A DNA stretch of 64,000 nucleotides. It comes from Agromyces ramosus. Its GTDB lineage: Bacteria; Actinomycetota; Actinomycetes; Actinomycetales; Microbacteriaceae. Of the stretch, positions 43,970-55,409 are shown piece by piece (positions within the stretch are counted from its first letter, which is position 1; every line of letters begins with the position of its first letter). The translations under genes were made by a program, and so were the position numbers. The DNA is taken from positions 62,001-126,000 of the forward strand of contig NZ_SGWY01000003.1 in assembly GCF_004216665.1 (NCBI RefSeq). Reading direction: 5' to 3'. The notes under the pieces were generated by a model that had not been told where the DNA came from, did not search any database, and was given only the letters and a program-made list of their open reading frames with translations.

Positions 43970-45133
43970 GTGCACCACACCGAACAGAGCGGATCACCGG
44001 CATCCGGCGCCATCGTGGACCCCCGAATCGCGGTGCGTCCTTCGACACTCGCCGACGGTCGGGAGCTCATCTACTTCGACGACGCCGACACGACGCTGCC
44101 GGCCGAACGCGCGATCGACGAACGCACGCTCGACCCGCGACCCGCCACCGCGCACATGCGACAGGACCCGCTCACCGGCGAGTGGATCTCGATCGCGGCC
44201 GCGCGGCAGAACCGGGTCTTCCTCCCGCCGGCCGACCTCGACCCGCTGGCCCCGCAGAAGCCGGGCAACCCGTCGGAGATCCCGAGCACCTACGACGTCG
44301 CGGTGTTCGAGAACCGGTCGCCCTCGTTCGGGCCGGAGCTCGCCGCGGCGGATGCCGCCAGCAGCGAGGCCCTGGCCGCACTGCGTCGGGTCGGCCTCGA
44401 GCGCACGTCGACCTCGGTGGGCCGGTGCGAGGTGGTGTGCTTCAGCCCCGAGCACGAGGGTTCCTTCGGCACGCTCAGCGTCTCGCGCGCCCGCACGGTG
44501 ATCGAGGCGTGGGCGCAGCGCACGGCCGTCCTCTCGGCCCTGCACGGCGTCGAGGAGGTCTTCCCCTTCGAGAACCGCGGGCGCGAGATCGGCGTCACGC
44601 TCCCCCACCCGCACGGCCAGATCTACGCCTACCCCTACGTCACACCGCGCACCGAGCGCCTGCTCGCGGCGATCGACGACTACGGGCCGACCCTCATGGG
44701 CGACATCCTCGAGCGCGAGCGCAACGGCCCGCGCGTGCTCCTCGCCGGCGAGCACTGGACGGCGTTCGTGCCGTTCGCGGCGCGCTGGCCGATCGAGGTG
44801 CACCTGCTGCCCCACCGCCACGTGCCCGACTTCGCCGAGACGACGCTCGCCGAGCGCGACGAGCTGGCCTCGCTCTACCTGCGGCTGCTGCGCGGCGTCG
44901 ACCGCCTCTACGACACGCCCACGCCCTACATCGCGGCGTGGCACCAGGCCCCCGTGCACGAGCATCGCGGCGACGTGCGGCTCATGCTGCAGCTGACGAG
45001 CCCGCGTCGGGCCGCCGACAAGCTGAAGTACCTCGCGGGCTCCGAGGCCGCGATGGGAGCATGGATCGGGGACGTGGCCCCCGAGGCGCAGGCCGACGCG
45101 CTGCGACGGGCGATCGGAGGGGTCGAGGCATGA
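43970..45133 (+). CDS. galT: Galactose-1-phosphate uridylyltransferase
   Basis: The 387-residue enzyme swaps UMP between UDP-glucose and galactose-1-phosphate in the Leloir pathway. It has RQDPLTGEWISIAAARQNR, the uridylylated histidine motif HPHGQIYAYPY, and HLLPHRHVPDF. The GTG start follows a TAGGGT hexamer by 6 bases, so the message may be leaderless; AGGG could also act as a weak ribosome site. The stop overlaps the galK ATG (ATGA). Complete length. Confidence 0.94.
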   Translation: MHHTEQSGSPASGAIVDPRIAVRPSTLADGRELIYFDDADTTLPAERAIDERTLDPRPATAHMRQDPLTGEWISIAAARQNRVFLPPADLDPLAPQKPGNPSEIPSTYDVAVFENRSPSFGPELAAADAASSEALAALRRVGLERTSTSVGRCEVVCFSPEHEGSFGTLSVSRARTVIEAWAQRTAVLSALHGVEEVFPFENRGREIGVTLPHPHGQIYAYPYVTPRTERLLAAIDDYGPTLMGDILERERNGPRVLLAGEHWTAFVPFAARWPIEVHLLPHRHVPDFAETTLAERDELASLYLRLLRGVDRLYDTPTPYIAAWHQAPVHEHRGDVRLMLQLTSPRRAADKLKYLAGSEAAMGAWIGDVAPEAQADALRRAIGGVEA

Positions 45134-46287
45134 ACGAGGTCGCCGACGCGATGCACGGGTTCGCCGAGTGGTACGGGCGCGCGCCCATCGGCGCATGGTC
45201 CGCGCCCGGCCGGGTCAACCTCATCGGGGAGCACACCGACTACAACGACGGATTCGTGTTCCCGTTCGCCATCGACCACCGCACCGCGGTGGCGCTCGGC
45301 GACCGCGACGACCGCGTCGTGCGCGTGGCGTCGAGCTTCGCGCCCGAGGCGGTGGAGATCCACCTCGACGAGCTCACGCCCGACGCCGTCGACGGCTGGG
45401 CAGCCTACCCGCTCGGGGTGGCGTGGGCCCTCGGCGAGCACGGCGCCGACCTCCCGCATGTGCGCGGCGTCGACCTGTACATCACGAGCTCGGTGCCGAT
45501 CGGCGCCGGCCTGTCCTCGTCGGCGGCCATCGAGTGCGCCGTCGCCGTCGCGCTCGACGAGCACTGGGGCCTCGGCTTCGATCGCCCCACCCTCGCGAAG
45601 GTCGGCCAGCTCGCCGAGAACCGCGTGGTGGGCGCCCCGACCGGGATCATGGACCAATCGGCGTCGCTGCTCGGCGAGGCCGACGCCGGCGTCTTCCTCG
45701 ACTGCCGCAGCCTCGACGCCGACGTGATCCCGCTCGGATTCTCGGCCGACGGCCTGACGCTGCTCGTCATCGACACGAAGGTCGAGCACGCGCACGCCTC
45801 CGGGGGCTACGCCGCGCGTCGCGCCTCCTGTGAGGCGGGCGCCGCGGCCCTCGGCGCCGACTCGCTGCGCGACCTGCGACCCGACGACCTCGAGCGGGCC
45901 GCCGGACTGCTCGACGACGAGACGTTCCGCCGCGTCCGCCACGTGGTCACCGAGGACCAGCGGGTGCTCGACACCGTGCGCACGCTGCGCGAGCAGGGAC
46001 CCGGGGCGATCGGTCCGTTCCTCGACGCGTCGCACGTCTCGATGCGCGACGACTTCGAGATCTCGGTGCCCGAGCTCGACCTCGCCGTCGCGACGGCGCA
46101 GGCGAACGGCGCGATCGGCGCCCGCATGACCGGCGGGGGCTTCGGCGGTTCCGCCATCGCCCTCGTGATCGACGGGTTGGTGCCCGTGATCACCCGGGAG
46201 GTGCTGGCGGCGTTCGCCGAGCACGGCTACCGCGAGCCGTCCATCTTCGCCGTGCACCCGAGCCAGGGCGCCCGGCGCGACGCCTAA
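45130..46287 (+). CDS. galK: Galactokinase
   Basis: The 385-residue GHMP kinase phosphorylates galactose at C1. Motifs: galactose signature GRVNLIGEHTDYNDGFVFP, the ATP loop PIGAGLSSSAAIE, and the third GHMP motif MTGGGFGGSAIAL. It is coupled to galT by a 4-base overlap. Together with galM they make the Leloir entry steps; no UDP-galactose epimerase is in the window. Likely controlled by the adjacent DeoR regulator. Confidence 0.95.
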   Translation: MNEVADAMHGFAEWYGRAPIGAWSAPGRVNLIGEHTDYNDGFVFPFAIDHRTAVALGDRDDRVVRVASSFAPEAVEIHLDELTPDAVDGWAAYPLGVAWALGEHGADLPHVRGVDLYITSSVPIGAGLSSSAAIECAVAVALDEHWGLGFDRPTLAKVGQLAENRVVGAPTGIMDQSASLLGEADAGVFLDCRSLDADVIPLGFSADGLTLLVIDTKVEHAHASGGYAARRASCEAGAAALGADSLRDLRPDDLERAAGLLDDETFRRVRHVVTEDQRVLDTVRTLREQGPGAIGPFLDASHVSMRDDFEISVPELDLAVATAQANGAIGARMTGGGFGGSAIALVIDGLVPVITREVLAAFAEHGYREPSIFAVHPSQGARRDA

Positions 46288-50836: not shown

Positions 50837-52165
50837 TCAGGCTCGCTCGGGCGCGAGCCGGTTGCGAAGCCGGCGGACCCGCCGCACGATCCAGCGCAGG
50901 GGCAGGGCGACGAGCATCGCCGCGACGCCCTCGAACGACCGGTCGTGCCGTCCGAGCATCCGCTTGCGCTCGAACGCCCGGCGCAGCGCGCCGCCCGCGA
51001 GGTTGTACCGCCGCCGCGCGAGCGGGAGGGGCCCATCCCGTCGACGCGCGACGAGCCGGTCGAGCCGCACGAGCCAGTCGTCGGCGTCGGCGCCGTGGAA
51101 GTAGTTGTCGCCGAGCCACTCCGGCTCGGGGTGCCTCGCGGCGCCCGAGACCAGGTCGCCCGCACCACCGAACAGCCCGCTGCCGACGAACACGGTGTTG
51201 ATGAGCTTCGGTTCGACCCCGAACTCGTCGATCACGAGCGACGGCACGCCCTCGGCCACCGCCTCGAGCACCGCGGTGGAGCTCACGGTGACGAGGGCGG
51301 ACGCCCGCGCGAGGTGGTCGGCCATCGGGCCGTCCTCCACCACGAGGTTCGGGGGCAGGGTGCCGCCGAGCTCGGCGCGCACCTGCGGGTCCGCGAGCAG
51401 CTCGGCGAAGTCGTAGGACTCGGCATGGGTCTGCGCCTCGCCGGCACGGGCGCGCACCTTGACCACCACCCGGCGCTGCGGACGCCGGCGGGCGGCATCC
51501 GCGAGCCACCCGAGGAGGCGCACCCGGTCCTCCCGAAGCGACGGGACCTTCGCCTGCGCGGCGAACAGGAGGTCGGTGCGTGCCGCGTCGAATCCCGCCG
51601 TGCCGTGACCAGCGGACCCTGCGGGGGCCGCGCCCGCCGCGCCGGCTCCGGCGTGCTGCCGGGCCGCCGTCCGCAGGAACGGGAGGGTCGCGAGCCCGAG
51701 CTCGACGGGCAGGCCGAGGAGCTCGGCGTTCGCGCGGAACTCCCGCACCTCGCGTCGGCTGTGCAGCACGATGAGGTCGACCTGCTCCCGGTAGATCACG
51801 GCCTTCGGCTCGGCCGGGATCGTGAGGCCGGGGAAGCCGCTCATGAGCACCGGTCGATCGTCGGACGCACCGATCACGGGTGCGACCACCCGCACGAGCG
51901 GCCCCCGGAGCGCGAGCAGCACCGCCTCGGGCCGGAGCCCGCCGACCAGTCCGGCGAGCGCGTCGAGCTCGACCACGTCGACGTCCGCCGGGGCGACGCG
52001 CGATCCGGCGAGCGCCACCCTGAGCTGGCGCGCGCTCGGCTGCGCGGGCGTGGCCAGCACGACGAGGCGCATGCGCCAGGCATCCGTGGGCAGCTGCGAC
52101 GCGAGCGCGGCGCCCCATTTCACGTACGAGTCGGTGTCGGCGACGACGAGGAGCGTGCCGCTCAC
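50837..52165 (-). CDS. Putative glycosyltransferase (DUF6716/polysialyltransferase-like)
   Basis: The 442-residue protein has an N-terminal Rossmann-like half (MSGTLLVVADTDSYVKWGAAL; VPSLREDRVRLLGWLAD) and a C-terminal GT-B-like half with VVEDGPMADHLARASALVTVSSTAVLEAVAEGVPSLVIDEFG, reminiscent of bacterial polysialyltransferases and CDP-glycerol-type transferases. It has no signal peptide. Its GTG start overlaps the neuB-like stop (GTGA), so it belongs to the nonulosonic acid operon. Its likely role is moving the CMP-activated sugar onto a surface polymer, inferred from context. Confidence 0.72.
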   Translation of the reverse strand: MSGTLLVVADTDSYVKWGAALASQLPTDAWRMRLVVLATPAQPSARQLRVALAGSRVAPADVDVVELDALAGLVGGLRPEAVLLALRGPLVRVVAPVIGASDDRPVLMSGFPGLTIPAEPKAVIYREQVDLIVLHSRREVREFRANAELLGLPVELGLATLPFLRTAARQHAGAGAAGAAPAGSAGHGTAGFDAARTDLLFAAQAKVPSLREDRVRLLGWLADAARRRPQRRVVVKVRARAGEAQTHAESYDFAELLADPQVRAELGGTLPPNLVVEDGPMADHLARASALVTVSSTAVLEAVAEGVPSLVIDEFGVEPKLINTVFVGSGLFGGAGDLVSGAARHPEPEWLGDNYFHGADADDWLVRLDRLVARRRDGPLPLARRRYNLAGGALRRAFERKRMLGRHDRSFEGVAAMLVALPLRWIVRRVRRLRNRLAPERA

Positions 52166-53037
52166 GCAGGCACCCGGCGCAGCTTGGCCCGCGGCGCCTC
52201 CTCACCGGGGAAGACGCGCTTCACGCCGTCGCCCATGGCCTCGCCGATGATGCGGATGTCGCGCACGAGGTGCTCGAGGCCCTGCGGCTCGAGCGAGGCG
52301 GCCTGGTCGCTGCCCCACATGGCGCGGTCGAGGGTGATGTGGCGCTCCACCGCGACGGCGCCGAGCGCCACCGCCGCGAGGGAGATCTGCAGGCCGCACT
52401 CGTGGCCCGAGTAGCCGATCGGCACGCCGGGATAGCGCCTCTGCAGCGTGTCGATCATGCGCAGGTTGGCCTCCTCGGCGGGCATCGGGTAGCTCGACGT
52501 GGCGTGCATGAGCACGAGGCGATCGGTGCCGAGCGCCTCGATGGCGCGATCGATCTCCTCGATCGTCGACATGCCGGTCGAGAGGATCACGGGCTTGGCG
52601 GTGCGGGCGACGGCGTCGAGCAGCTCGAGGTCGGTCACCGACGCCGACGCGATCTTGTGCGCGACCACGTCGAGCCCCTCGAGGAACTCGACCGACGGCA
52701 CGTCCCACGGCGACGCGAACCAGTCGACCCCTGCGCGCATCGCGTACGACGCGATCTCGAGGTACTCGGCCTCGCCGAACTCCACGCGGCGCCGGTAGTC
52801 GAGGTAGCTCATCGTGCCCCAGGGCGTCTCGCGCGGCACGTCGCGCATGTGCTCGGGCGTGGCGATCTCGGGGGTGCGCTTCTGGAACTTCACGGCCTGG
52901 GCGCCGCACTCGACCGCCACGTCGATCAGTCGCTTGGCGATCCCGACGTCGCCGTTGTGGTTCAGGCCGATCTCGCCGATCACGTAGACGGGCAGGCCGG
53001 GACCGATCACCGATCGGCCGATGCGCACAGCGGTCAT
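52162..53037 (-). CDS. neuB: NeuB-like nonulosonic acid synthase without SAF domain
   Basis: The 291-residue TIM barrel has the NeuB signatures GEIGLNHNGDVGIAKRLIDVAVECGAQAVKFQ, DVPSVEFLEGLDVVAHKIAS, STGMSTIEEIDRAIEAL, HATSSYPMPAEEANLRM and GYSGHECGLQISLAAVALGA. It would condense phosphoenolpyruvate with a hexose or hexosamine (or its 6-phosphate). Usual NeuB is ~345 residues with a C-terminal SAF (antifreeze-like) lid; here the protein ends right after the barrel. It lies 4 bases after the NeuA-like gene and overlaps the glycosyltransferase start. Confidence 0.85.
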   Translation of the reverse strand: MTAVRIGRSVIGPGLPVYVIGEIGLNHNGDVGIAKRLIDVAVECGAQAVKFQKRTPEIATPEHMRDVPRETPWGTMSYLDYRRRVEFGEAEYLEIASYAMRAGVDWFASPWDVPSVEFLEGLDVVAHKIASASVTDLELLDAVARTAKPVILSTGMSTIEEIDRAIEALGTDRLVLMHATSSYPMPAEEANLRMIDTLQRRYPGVPIGYSGHECGLQISLAAVALGAVAVERHITLDRAMWGSDQAASLEPQGLEHLVRDIRIIGEAMGDGVKRVFPGEEAPRAKLRRVPA

Positions 53038-53041
53038 TCGC

Positions 53042-54364
53042 TCACTCCTCCTCGTTCGAGGCGCCGGTCGCGCCCCTCGTCATACGGGCTCCGACGATGA
53101 GGTCGGAGAGTTCTCGCACGGCCCCGTCGCCGCCCCGGCGGCGCAGCACGAGGCGGGCACCGGCGAGCACCTCGGGCGTCGCATCGGCCACGGCGATCGG
53201 CCAGCCCACGAGCTCGAGCGCGGGCAGGTCGCCACGGTCGTTGCCGAGGTACGCGATGCGATCGAGCCGGATGCCGCGGGCCGCCGCCCACTCGCGCAGC
53301 ACCGCGCCCTTGTCGGCGACGCCCTGCGCGCACTCCACCCCGAGCTTCTCGGCCCGGCGGCCGACCACCGGGTTCTCCTCGGCGGACAGGATCAGCACGG
53401 GCACGCCGGCGGCCCGGAGACGTGCGATGCCGTGACCGTCGCTGCGGCTCACGCGCACGGTCTCCCGTCCGAGCTGGTCGACCATCACCATGTCATCGGT
53501 GTGCACGCCGTCGAAGTCGGTGACGAGCGCGTCGACCTCGACGAGCGGATGCCGCGGCTCGTCGCCGGGGTGGTGGCGTGCCGCCGCGAGCGCCCGGTCG
53601 ACCTGCGGCGCGATCGCCCGCGCCCGCTCGAGGTCGGCGGCGTCGTCGATCTCGATCGCGTGGTCGGCGGGCACGGGCCGGATGCCGACGCGCCCGAAGA
53701 AGCGGTGGCCCGCAGCGAGGAACCCCGCGGTGCGGAACACGTAGAACGCACCCGTCTCGGCGTACTCGGGCTCGCGGTCCTGCCGGCGCGGACGGTGCGC
53801 GGCGTCGTGGTTCACGCCGGAGGCGCCCGCGACGGCGTCGTCGCGCCACAGGAAGACGTGCGACGCCGCGGCCGAGAACACGACGTCCCGCTCGCCGGAC
53901 GTGACCCATTCGATCGCGGCGTCGAGGTCGGCGGGGTCGATGAACGGCGACGTCGCCTGGATGAACACGGTGAGCTCGTCGCCCGCCGCGGCGTCGAGTC
54001 CGAGCGCCCCGAGCGCATGCCGGAGGGCCGACTCGCTCGACGCGGTGGCGCCGGCGAGCTCGGCAGGACGCGCGACGACCTCGGCGCCCGCGTGGCGCGC
54101 CGCCTCGGCGATCCCGTCGTCGTCGGTCGTGACGACCACGCGCCCGATCCGCTCCGCGGCGAGCGCGGCGAGCACCGCCCGTGCGACGAGCGGGATGCCC
54201 CCGACGCGTGCCACGTTCTTGCCCGGAAGTCCCTGCGAGCCGCCCCGCGCCGGGATGATCGCCGTCGCCAGTGCCGTCGGCGGGACCGCCGCGCGCGGAC
54301 CGGCGGCCACGCGAGGCGCGCGACCCGCCGCGGCGGGCGCGTGCCGGAGGTCGACGTGGGTCAT
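53042..54364 (-). CDS. neuA: CMP-nonulosonate synthetase fused to KdsC-like HAD phosphatase
   Basis: The 440-residue fusion has a NeuA-type CTP transferase (IIPARGGSQGLPGKN near residue 37-51; FIQATSPFIDPADLDAAI; ETGAFYVF) and a C-terminal HAD domain with nucleophile DFDGVHTDD, ILSAEENPVVGRRAEKL and GNDRGDLPALELVG. HAD partner domains of this type act on 9-phosphates of Neu5Ac/Kdn or Kdo-8-P. It starts at ATG 54364 with an Ala/Arg-rich 30-residue leader. It heads the operon, with neuB 4 bases downstream. The sugar made cannot be fixed from sequence; Kdn-9-P dephosphorylation is a reasoned guess. Confidence 0.85.
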   Translation of the reverse strand: MTHVDLRHAPAAAGRAPRVAAGPRAAVPPTALATAIIPARGGSQGLPGKNVARVGGIPLVARAVLAALAAERIGRVVVTTDDDGIAEAARHAGAEVVARPAELAGATASSESALRHALGALGLDAAAGDELTVFIQATSPFIDPADLDAAIEWVTSGERDVVFSAAASHVFLWRDDAVAGASGVNHDAAHRPRRQDREPEYAETGAFYVFRTAGFLAAGHRFFGRVGIRPVPADHAIEIDDAADLERARAIAPQVDRALAAARHHPGDEPRHPLVEVDALVTDFDGVHTDDMVMVDQLGRETVRVSRSDGHGIARLRAAGVPVLILSAEENPVVGRRAEKLGVECAQGVADKGAVLREWAAARGIRLDRIAYLGNDRGDLPALELVGWPIAVADATPEVLAGARLVLRRRGGDGAVRELSDLIVGARMTRGATGASNEEE

Positions 54365-54524: not shown

Positions 54525-55409
54525 CTACCGGTGCAGGCGCTGCTCGGCCGACTTCACGACGTTCGCCAGGAGCATGGCACGGGTCATCGGCCCGACGCCG
54601 CCCGGGTTCGGCGAGAGGTGGCCCGCGACCTCGGCGACGCCCGGGTCGACGTCGCCGGTGAGCCGGCCCTTGCCGGTCTCCTCGTCCTGCACGCGCGTGA
54701 TGCCGACGTCGAGCACGGCCGCGCCGGGCTTGATCCAGTCGGGCTGCACGAGGTGCGGCACGCCCACGGCGGCCACGACGATGTCGGCGCGGCGCACCTC
54801 GGCCGCGAGGTCCTGCGTGCGCGAGTGCGTCAGCGTGACCGTCGCGTCGAGGCCCTTGCGGGTGAACAGCAGCCCGAGCGGACGACCCACGGTGAGGCCG
54901 CGTCCGATCACGGTGACGTGGCGTCCCCGGATCGGCACGTCGTAGCGACGCAGCATCTCGACGATGCCGGCGGGCGTGCACGGCAGCGGCGAGTGCAGCT
55001 CGCCCTCGATTCCGAGCACGAGCCGGCCGAGGTTGGTCGGGTGCAGGCCGTCGGCGTCCTTGTCGGGGTCGATGAGCTCGAGCATCGCGTTCTCGTCGTG
55101 GCCCGCCGGCAGCGGGAGCTGCACGATGTAGCCCGTCACCTCGTGCGCCGAGTTGAGGTCGTGGATCGCCCGGCGCACGTCGGCGGTGGTCGCCGACGCG
55201 GGCAGGTCGACGCGGATCGACTCGATGCCGACCTCGGCGCAGTCGCGGTGCTTGCCCGCGACGTAGGAGCGCGACCCCGGGTCATCGCCGACGAGGAGCG
55301 TGCCGAGGCCCGGCACGACCCCGTGTGCGCGCAGCAAGGCGATGCGCGACGCGAGCTCCCCCTTCACCGCCGTCGCGGTCGCGATGCCGTCGAGCGTGAT
55401 CGCCGTCAT
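54525..55409 (-). CDS. folD: Methylenetetrahydrofolate dehydrogenase/cyclohydrolase FolD
   Basis: The 294-residue bifunctional enzyme interconverts 5,10-methylene-, methenyl- and 10-formyl-THF with NADP. Motifs: [18 protein letters not shown] with the catalytic Lys, [28 protein letters not shown], and the nucleotide loop [16 protein letters not shown]. It follows glyA with 8 bases between, so the two are co-transcribed. The ZTP riboswitch before glyA should control both. Confidence 0.96.

Follow-up and report, generated by a model that had tools for sequence, protein, structure and literature searches.

Described systems and the Agromyces operon

Three described systems bear on a compact operon of Agromyces ramosus, which lies at positions 50837-54364 on the minus strand of a 64,000-nucleotide stretch of contig NZ_SGWY01000003.1 (the window). 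The first is the pathway of Bacteroides thetaiotaomicron that proceeds through the 9-phosphate of the nonulosonic acid 3-deoxy-D-glycero-D-galacto-non-2-ulosonic acid (Kdn), and whose phosphatase we take to be BT1713 (PDB 3e81). The operon has in common with it a HAD type C0 phosphatase carrying residues E56 and K67, a NeuB-type synthase and a cytidine monophosphate (CMP)-sugar synthetase; it differs in that its phosphatase is fused to the synthetase NeuA (and in some actinobacteria to NeuB as well) and in that a NeuE-family gene is linked to the others. The second is region 2 (neuDBACES) of the polysialic acid genes of E. coli K1, which likewise contains NeuA, NeuB and a DUF6716 protein. In contrast to the operon, K1 also has NeuC and NeuS, its NeuB has a SAF domain and its NeuA is fused to a GDSL esterase-like domain. 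The third is the teichulosonic-acid region of Streptomyces coelicolor, SCO4873-4882 according to PMC13011467, which cites Ostash 2014 for the assignment; the Streptomyces polymer is described as containing galactose and Kdn (PMC11481543, PMC7831098). The existence of that assignment corrects a preliminary description of the window, made from its letters alone, in which the genes behind teichulosonic acids were called less well described.

The Agromyces operon is a new, minimal variant of this known kind of cluster. It consists of three genes, and we think it likely that between them they make Kdn and attach it to an acceptor. Their features are as follows.

54364..53042, minus strand: NeuA-HAD, ATG start, 440 residues; Pfam CTP_transf_3 (PF02348, 76 bits) and HAD; PDB matches 9t4z (PpNeuA), 3mmz and 3e81
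53612..54265, minus strand: CMP-synthetase domain of NeuA-HAD, residues 34-251; PDB matches 9t4z, 1qwj and 1eyr
53084..53539, minus strand: HAD type C0 phosphatase domain of NeuA-HAD, residues 276-427; catalytic set plus BT1713 residues E56 and K67
53037..52162, minus strand: NeuB-type nonulosonate synthase without SAF, predicted Kdn-9-phosphate synthase, ATG start, 291 residues; PF03102, 268 bits
52165..50837, minus strand: DUF6716 (NeuE-family) protein of the GT-B fold, predicted CMP-Kdn transferase with a hydrophobic-basic C-terminal tail, GTG start, 442 residues; PF20471, 411.8 bits, E 2.6e-123; AlphaFold2 model with a mean predicted local distance difference test score (pLDDT) of 91.2

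The three-gene operon and these family assignments are certain. NeuA-HAD and NeuB are separated by four bases (TCGC), the ATG of NeuB is preceded by the purine-rich GAGGAGGAG, and the NeuB stop and DUF6716 start share a four-base overlap (GTGA), so that the tight coupling read from the letters at the outset is borne out by the coordinates.

Linkage and distribution of the genes

The association of these genes was followed through 120 Microbacteriaceae genomes and through the best 80 of at least 579 related loci in the genome collection, 67 of which have full flanks (at least 6.5 kb on each side); family counts over the 80 loci were made at a threshold of 100 bits. The NeuB clade of the operon is sharply set off, scoring above 520 bits in 32 of the 120 genomes, with a next best score of 237. 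DUF6716 is also found in 32, and 31 genomes have both, so the grouping is not due to chance (Fisher p 2e-26, uncorrected for kinship). NeuB adjoins DUF6716 at 29 of the 30 loci fetched around DUF6716. In the best 80 loci NeuA is present at 76, HAD at 68 and DUF6716 at 70 (62 of the 67 with full flanks); a polysialyltransferase of the PF07388 type (polyST) is present at 57, a GT2 protein at 58 and a partner family that we designate H3 at 59. Of 396 genomes taken from across the phylum, 22 have a DUF6716 match, 17 of them above the cut-off. The coupling does have exceptions, which count against the explanation as a three-gene Kdn operon: genome G066 has DUF6716 without a NeuB of this clade, genome G030 and five of the 67 full-flank loci have the NeuB clade without DUF6716, and one Streptomyces genome has a second DUF6716 gene (L061) with neither NeuA nor NeuB nearby.

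At four loci (L089, L109, L067 and L068, Aeromicrobium among them) one NeuA/NeuB pair stands between two divergent DUF6716 genes. In Curtobacterium sp. MCBD17_032 (L086) NeuA and NeuB each occupy two frames, the mark of a broken or frameshifted copy or of a sequencing error; with its NeuB split in this way, L086 was excluded from the NeuB comparison. The closest named relative by NeuB among the matches listed is Agromyces fucosus (89%).

The nonulosonate synthase and the identity of the sugar

The SAF domain (PF08666) was not found by Pfam in the window NeuB, and in all 80 NeuB proteins compared (the window and 79 loci) the last conserved arginine, R287, is followed by 1-31 residues, which leaves no room for one. 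Judged by these sequences, the SAF-lessness noted in the preliminary description is a trait of the whole clade and not of the window gene alone. The NeuB-like chain of PDB 6ncs (290 residues) is similar in this respect, the match ending at residue 271 and leaving no SAF room unless the construct was cut; it is only a distant relative of the window NeuB, from which it differs in the residues that follow the KFQ motif. The SAF domain of the meningococcal enzyme contributes Arg314, which is reported to position the N-acetyl group of N-acetylmannosamine (ManNAc) (PMC6795526). Mapped by eye, the meningococcal pocket residues E25, Q55, K129, Y186, S213, H215 and E234 are kept in the window NeuB, and T110, F112 and N184 are replaced by S, W and S (N74 and F288 cannot be mapped).

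The same operon might make another nonulosonate: N-acetylneuraminic acid (Neu5Ac), legionaminic acid or pseudaminic acid. The NeuB family covers the synthases of all of these, the best equivalog for the window NeuB is the Neu5Ac synthase TIGR03569 (258.3 bits), and the NeuA half scores highest in NCBIfam with PseF (109.1 bits, cut-off 205.7). The NeuB score is, however, below the TIGR03569 cut-off of 399.65, as its score with the pseudaminic acid synthase TIGR03586 (204.2 bits) is below the cut-off of 340.25. Moreover, the whole genome (3.84 Mb, 99.98% complete) has no match to Epimerase_2 (PF02350, UDP-N-acetylglucosamine (UDP-GlcNAc) 2-epimerase) or to NanE (PF04131), and consequently no recognised ManNAc or LegG-type step; the lack of a UDP-GlcNAc epimerase, originally noted for the three-gene set, thus extends to the genome. 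Four partial matches to the PseB-type PF02719 (the best at 45 bits, above a low cut-off of 20.2) probably represent general NAD-binding proteins. Pfam recognised no amino-sugar precursor enzyme among 17 neighbouring genes of the window, and the HAD domain carries the residues of a Kdn-9-phosphate phosphatase. With only weak and partial PF02719 matches, the pseudaminic acid reading was set aside; the Neu5Ac or legionaminic acid reading is set back by the two genome-wide absences, yet G079, from the same genus, does have Epimerase_2. Taken together, a nonulosonate other than Kdn is improbable.

A more general look at the DUF6716-bearing Microbacteriaceae yields a divided picture. Epimerase_2 is lacking in 20 of the 32 genomes, which speaks for the Kdn reading; its presence in the other 12, G079 included, speaks against it. 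In one of these 12 (G057) the epimerase adjoins a second NeuB, of another clade. The genome of the window has one type I phosphomannose isomerase, ManA. The simplest reading would be Kdn, made by way of mannose-6-phosphate and Kdn-9-phosphate. That the sugar is Kdn we hold to be very probable, and that the route in this organism is phosphorylated to be probable, if slightly less so. The earlier proposal of one pathway leading to a CMP-activated nonulosonate is likewise supported.

The phosphatase domain and its fusions

The six catalytic residues of the HAD family (D, D, S, K, D, D) are kept in the window protein and in all 68 of the relatives' domains, and so are E56 and K67 of BT1713, which we assume to set the specificity of that enzyme for Kdn-9-phosphate. 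The corresponding residues are R and T in E. coli KdsC, R and S in 3mn1, and A and Q in 3n1u; the deposited PDB variant 4hgq has A in place of E56. A literature search on specificity residues of Kdn-9-phosphate phosphatases turned up nothing relevant. By blastp the window domain scores higher with BT1713 (94.0 bits) than with E. coli KdsC (75.9). Two comparisons run the other way: in NCBIfam the KdsC model (93.6 bits, cut-off 208) is marginally ahead of the Kdn-9-phosphatase model NF058599 (91.8 bits, cut-off 180), both scores falling below their cut-offs, and in a PDB search with the HAD half 3n1u ranks above BT1713. The idea, put forward at the outset, that the fused phosphatase would suit a Kdn-9-phosphate route consequently gains from the marker and catalytic residues and is left undecided by the whole-domain profiles. 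Wherever the two align, the HAD domain of Streptomyces aureus NeuA-HAD (L118) has the same sequence as PDB 3mmz, an entry deposited under the description of putative HAD hydrolase.

At eight of the 80 loci NeuA, HAD and NeuB are joined in a single open frame of ~680-720 residues, a fusion that ties the three reactions together. The hosts are Microtetraspora, Acrocarpospora, Herbidospora, Streptosporangium (two), Nonomuraea (two) and Arthrobacter castelli (L082, L088, L090, L094, L095, L098, L104 and L114, the fusion in L082 being confirmed by Pfam). The product is predicted from its domains to be an enzyme for the entire route from sugar phosphate to CMP-nonulosonate. A NeuA-NeuB fusion that lacks HAD occurs at two Streptomyces loci (L139 and L145).

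An obligatory 9-phosphate is called into question by the loci at which HAD was not found, 12 of the 80 (four of them with cut flanks). No HAD homologue was detected in the nine whole genomes searched (L080, L083-L086, L091, L108 of Glaciihabitans, L139 and L145), whose completeness is not given; the search recovered both of two control genomes and did not extend to L097, L150 and L157, which also have no HAD at the locus. Eight HAD-less cases were compared and all retain the NeuB active site unaltered, and no NeuB column discriminates between proteins with and without HAD (68 versus 8 sequences). Either another phosphatase serves in these genomes or the 9-phosphate is not obligatory; unless the former holds, they constitute the strongest evidence against an obligatory 9-phosphate.

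The third gene and NeuE

The third gene, initially described as a putative transferase, can now be placed by sequence in the family of E. coli K1 NeuE. The K1 gene between neuC and neuS (UTI89_RS16400, neuE by position) is labelled 'DUF6716 putative glycosyltransferase' in RefSeq, and its product scores 56.6 bits with PF20471 (cut-off 27). For the reverse comparison 68 relatives were reduced by identity to 34; the alignments, hidden Markov model (HMM) and structural model use 35 actinobacterial sequences. This HMM gives K1 NeuE 54.5 bits, the best of 500 shuffles of NeuE giving -0.5. It also scores 15.7 bits with K1 KpsS, around a VTxxSTA stretch only, and it has no match to K1 NeuS, NeuC or KpsC. 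No paper was retrieved by a limited literature search on the term DUF6716, the RefSeq label for K1 NeuE notwithstanding.

Accounts of NeuE differ. It is called a putative priming sialyltransferase in PMC5517516; in PMC2408645 it is an accessory or structural component of export with a C-terminal membrane anchor; in PMC5654933 NeuE, NeuS and KpsC belong to the minimal set for new polysialic acid, the exact role of NeuE being described there as not determined. A hydrophobic-basic C-terminus is common to K1 NeuE and the window protein, which has GVAAMLVALPLRWIV followed by a net charge of +6. Among the 35 actinobacterial proteins the C-terminus is net basic in 34, and a C-terminal stretch with a mean hydropathy of at least 1.0 is present in 15.

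Nineteen columns are invariant in the 35 sequences, including K236, R238, E243, H247, S295, S296 and E301. Their conservation suggests that the actinobacterial proteins have a working active site. K1 NeuE keeps nine of the 19 (G113, S136, Q204, P208, R214, K236, R238, S295 and S296), and D10 and D12 are present in it as well. It diverges from the actinobacterial proteins at Q47, R126 (K), A202, E243 (D), H247 (Y), L285, A298, E301 (Y), G316 and N323, with the qualification that its alignments disagree at two of these positions, E243 being matched by D with MAFFT or S with HMMER and H247 by Y or a gap.

The modelled structure of DUF6716 is a GT-B fold whose nearest neighbours are UDP-GlcNAc 2-epimerases (8sxy, Z 21.0, root-mean-square deviation (rmsd) 3.7, 304 residues aligned), followed by plant UDP-sugar transferases at Z 18-19. 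This ranking counts against a CMP-Kdn transferase, as does the lack of the HP motif of bacterial sialyltransferases (GT38/GT52/GT80), the residue after H247 being variable (most commonly I, A, N or L). The 50 structural matches listed are to other GT-B proteins and include no sialyltransferase, which does not tell against families outside that list. HP and D/E-D/E-G are the sialyltransferase motifs described in PMC2169525; inspection of the 19 invariant columns, made without a residue-level structural alignment, showed no D/E-D/E-G run. A K-x-R motif (K236, R238) is present in all 35 proteins. A PDB sequence search with DUF6716 produced one chance match (E 2.1).

The fold raises the possibility that DUF6716 is a diverged NeuC-like UDP-GlcNAc 2-epimerase, supplying ManNAc for Neu5Ac from the place in the operon where NeuC would be expected; NeuC itself (5zlr) is matched at Z 18.3. 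Against this, Epimerase_2 misses DUF6716, and the GDT, HxEAGLR and PEExNR motifs, invariant in the nine epimerases used (of 11; L169, read on the wrong strand, and L175, for which there was no frame, were left out), have no acidic counterpart in the corresponding stretches of the 35 DUF6716 proteins. The N-terminal-domain mapping on which this comparison relies was done by eye, hhalign covering residues 219-315 only, at 14% probability. In E. coli K1, moreover, NeuC and the DUF6716 protein are encoded side by side. DUF6716 as an epimerase was rejected on these motifs and is, in our estimation, very improbable.

What has been proposed for NeuE suggests another possibility: that DUF6716 is a non-catalytic organiser of a membrane polymerase complex, the transferase being encoded elsewhere. 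K1 NeuE becomes dispensable when NeuS is overproduced, as reported in PMC2408645, and it retains fewer than half of the invariant columns. The genome of the window, however, has no PF07388 match in a search aimed at that polymerase family, so its DUF6716 cannot simply serve a NeuS of the PF07388 family, and the invariant columns themselves speak for catalysis in the actinobacterial proteins. Outside the window the genome may yet encode H3 or a polymerase of some other family. An HMM built from actinobacterial polyST proteins missed K1 NeuS, although both match PF07388. At 14 of the 67 full-flank loci DUF6716 stands without polyST and GT2; six of these have H3 and eight have none of the three. 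We regard the organiser role as unlikely in Agromyces, and lean, with modest confidence, to DUF6716 as an active CMP-Kdn transferase.

The Streptomyces loci and partner H3

Nine Streptomyces stretches (L058-L066) were compared with the operon. In six (L058-L060, L062, L065 and L066; L058 by Pfam) polyST and GT2 run in one direction and DUF6716, NeuA-HAD, NeuB and a partner of 308-356 residues in the other; L063 and L064 are variants of this arrangement, L061 is the lone DUF6716, and L062 carries the same NeuB stretch as L118 of S. aureus. This order fits clusters of the SCO4877-4882 type when set beside the published S. coelicolor labels, which are hypothetical (SCO4877), glycosyltransferase (4878), conserved hypothetical (4879), putative transferase (4880) and polysaccharide biosynthesis (4881) in PMC2267785. 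The exact SCO numbering is uncertain because PMC8269224 lists a sialic acid synthase against SCO4880.

Common to the Streptomyces loci and the operon are the linkage of DUF6716, NeuA-HAD and NeuB, the absence of SAF from NeuB and the residues of the HAD domain. The gene order differs: NeuA-HAD, NeuB, DUF6716 in the operon versus DUF6716, NeuA-HAD, NeuB in Streptomyces. The operon also differs in adjoining folD-glyA and in the lack of a match to PF07388 polyST in its genome; neither a GT2 of the Streptomyces type nor a sialyltransferase-fold partner is found within the window. By analogy, then, the Agromyces operon is a reduced relative of the described S. coelicolor-type cluster.

The partner of the fuller clusters is H3 (e.g., L105:5903-6799 and L118:9008-10027), which has no Pfam match. 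Its invariant residues include DDG and the H-R pair of a YFPHRRES consensus, resembling the D/E-D/E-G and HP motifs of sialyltransferases. In VIA-align the closest structure to the H3 model (pLDDT 88.8) is 5wc6, a bacterial polysialyltransferase (Z 14.3, rmsd 4.8, 272 residues aligned), and sialyltransferases fill the first 12 rows; Foldseek alone has a plant UGT at the top (E 4.9e-4) and its highest sialyltransferase at rank 14. The VIA-align order and the motifs support a sialyltransferase fold, and fold and motifs in turn support CMP-nonulosonate chemistry for the fuller clusters. H3 is probably of the SCO4882 type. A profile comparison of DUF6716 with H3 found no similarity (0.6%).

On its upstream side the operon is flanked by folD and glyA on the same strand, and it is surrounded by genes that Pfam identifies as a gamma carbonic anhydrase-like gene, an amino-acid permease, galT, galK and a GH20 hexosaminidase. 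The nearest of the upstream genes lies outside the pathway:

54525..55409, minus strand: folD, upstream neighbour (Pfam), in this position also in L070 and L073

galT and galK, at 44015-46287 of the window (~5 kb from the operon), keep their position in L069, L070 and L073. Given the galactose of the Streptomyces polymer they might be connected with the operon, which is only a guess.

A proposed pathway and its meaning

We infer from these genes a short route with the following substrates, products and acceptor. ManA would convert fructose-6-phosphate to mannose-6-phosphate, which the SAF-less NeuB would condense with phosphoenolpyruvate to Kdn-9-phosphate; the HAD domain would remove the phosphate to give Kdn, and the NeuA domain would convert Kdn to CMP-Kdn. 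DUF6716, which its basic C-terminus would keep at the membrane, would then use CMP-Kdn to add Kdn to a lipid-linked glycan of the wall, a polymer of the teichulosonic-acid type. The wall as destination follows the analogy with Streptomyces, and we consider it reasonably likely. The likelihoods that we attach to Kdn, to the phosphorylated route, to transfer by DUF6716 and to the wall are judgements and were not computed.

A broader and more speculative proposal may be made for the family. DUF6716/NeuE might be a separate GT-B glycosyltransferase family that works with CMP-nonulosonates and has no HP motif. Its members in Agromyces, Curtobacterium and related bacteria would act alone, priming and perhaps also polymerising Kdn on a carrier of the wall; those in Streptomyces and E. 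coli K1 would prime for a PF07388 polymerase, and K1 NeuE would be a decayed member with a mainly scaffolding role. We put this forward tentatively, as doubtful in its entirety; were it true, a decayed, scaffolding NeuE would explain the conflicting proposals for the K1 protein.

The operon offers a compact model for surface glycans that contain nonulosonic acids, with three genes and a single candidate protein for the transfer step. The HAD fold of structure 3mmz gains a suggested function, that of a Kdn-9-phosphate phosphatase, and the analysis points to H3 of the Streptomyces clusters, without a Pfam name and with what appears to be a sialyltransferase fold. A relative of NeuE with apparently intact conserved residues, in an organism without a NeuS of the PF07388 type, would make the question of what NeuE does reducible to one purified enzyme.

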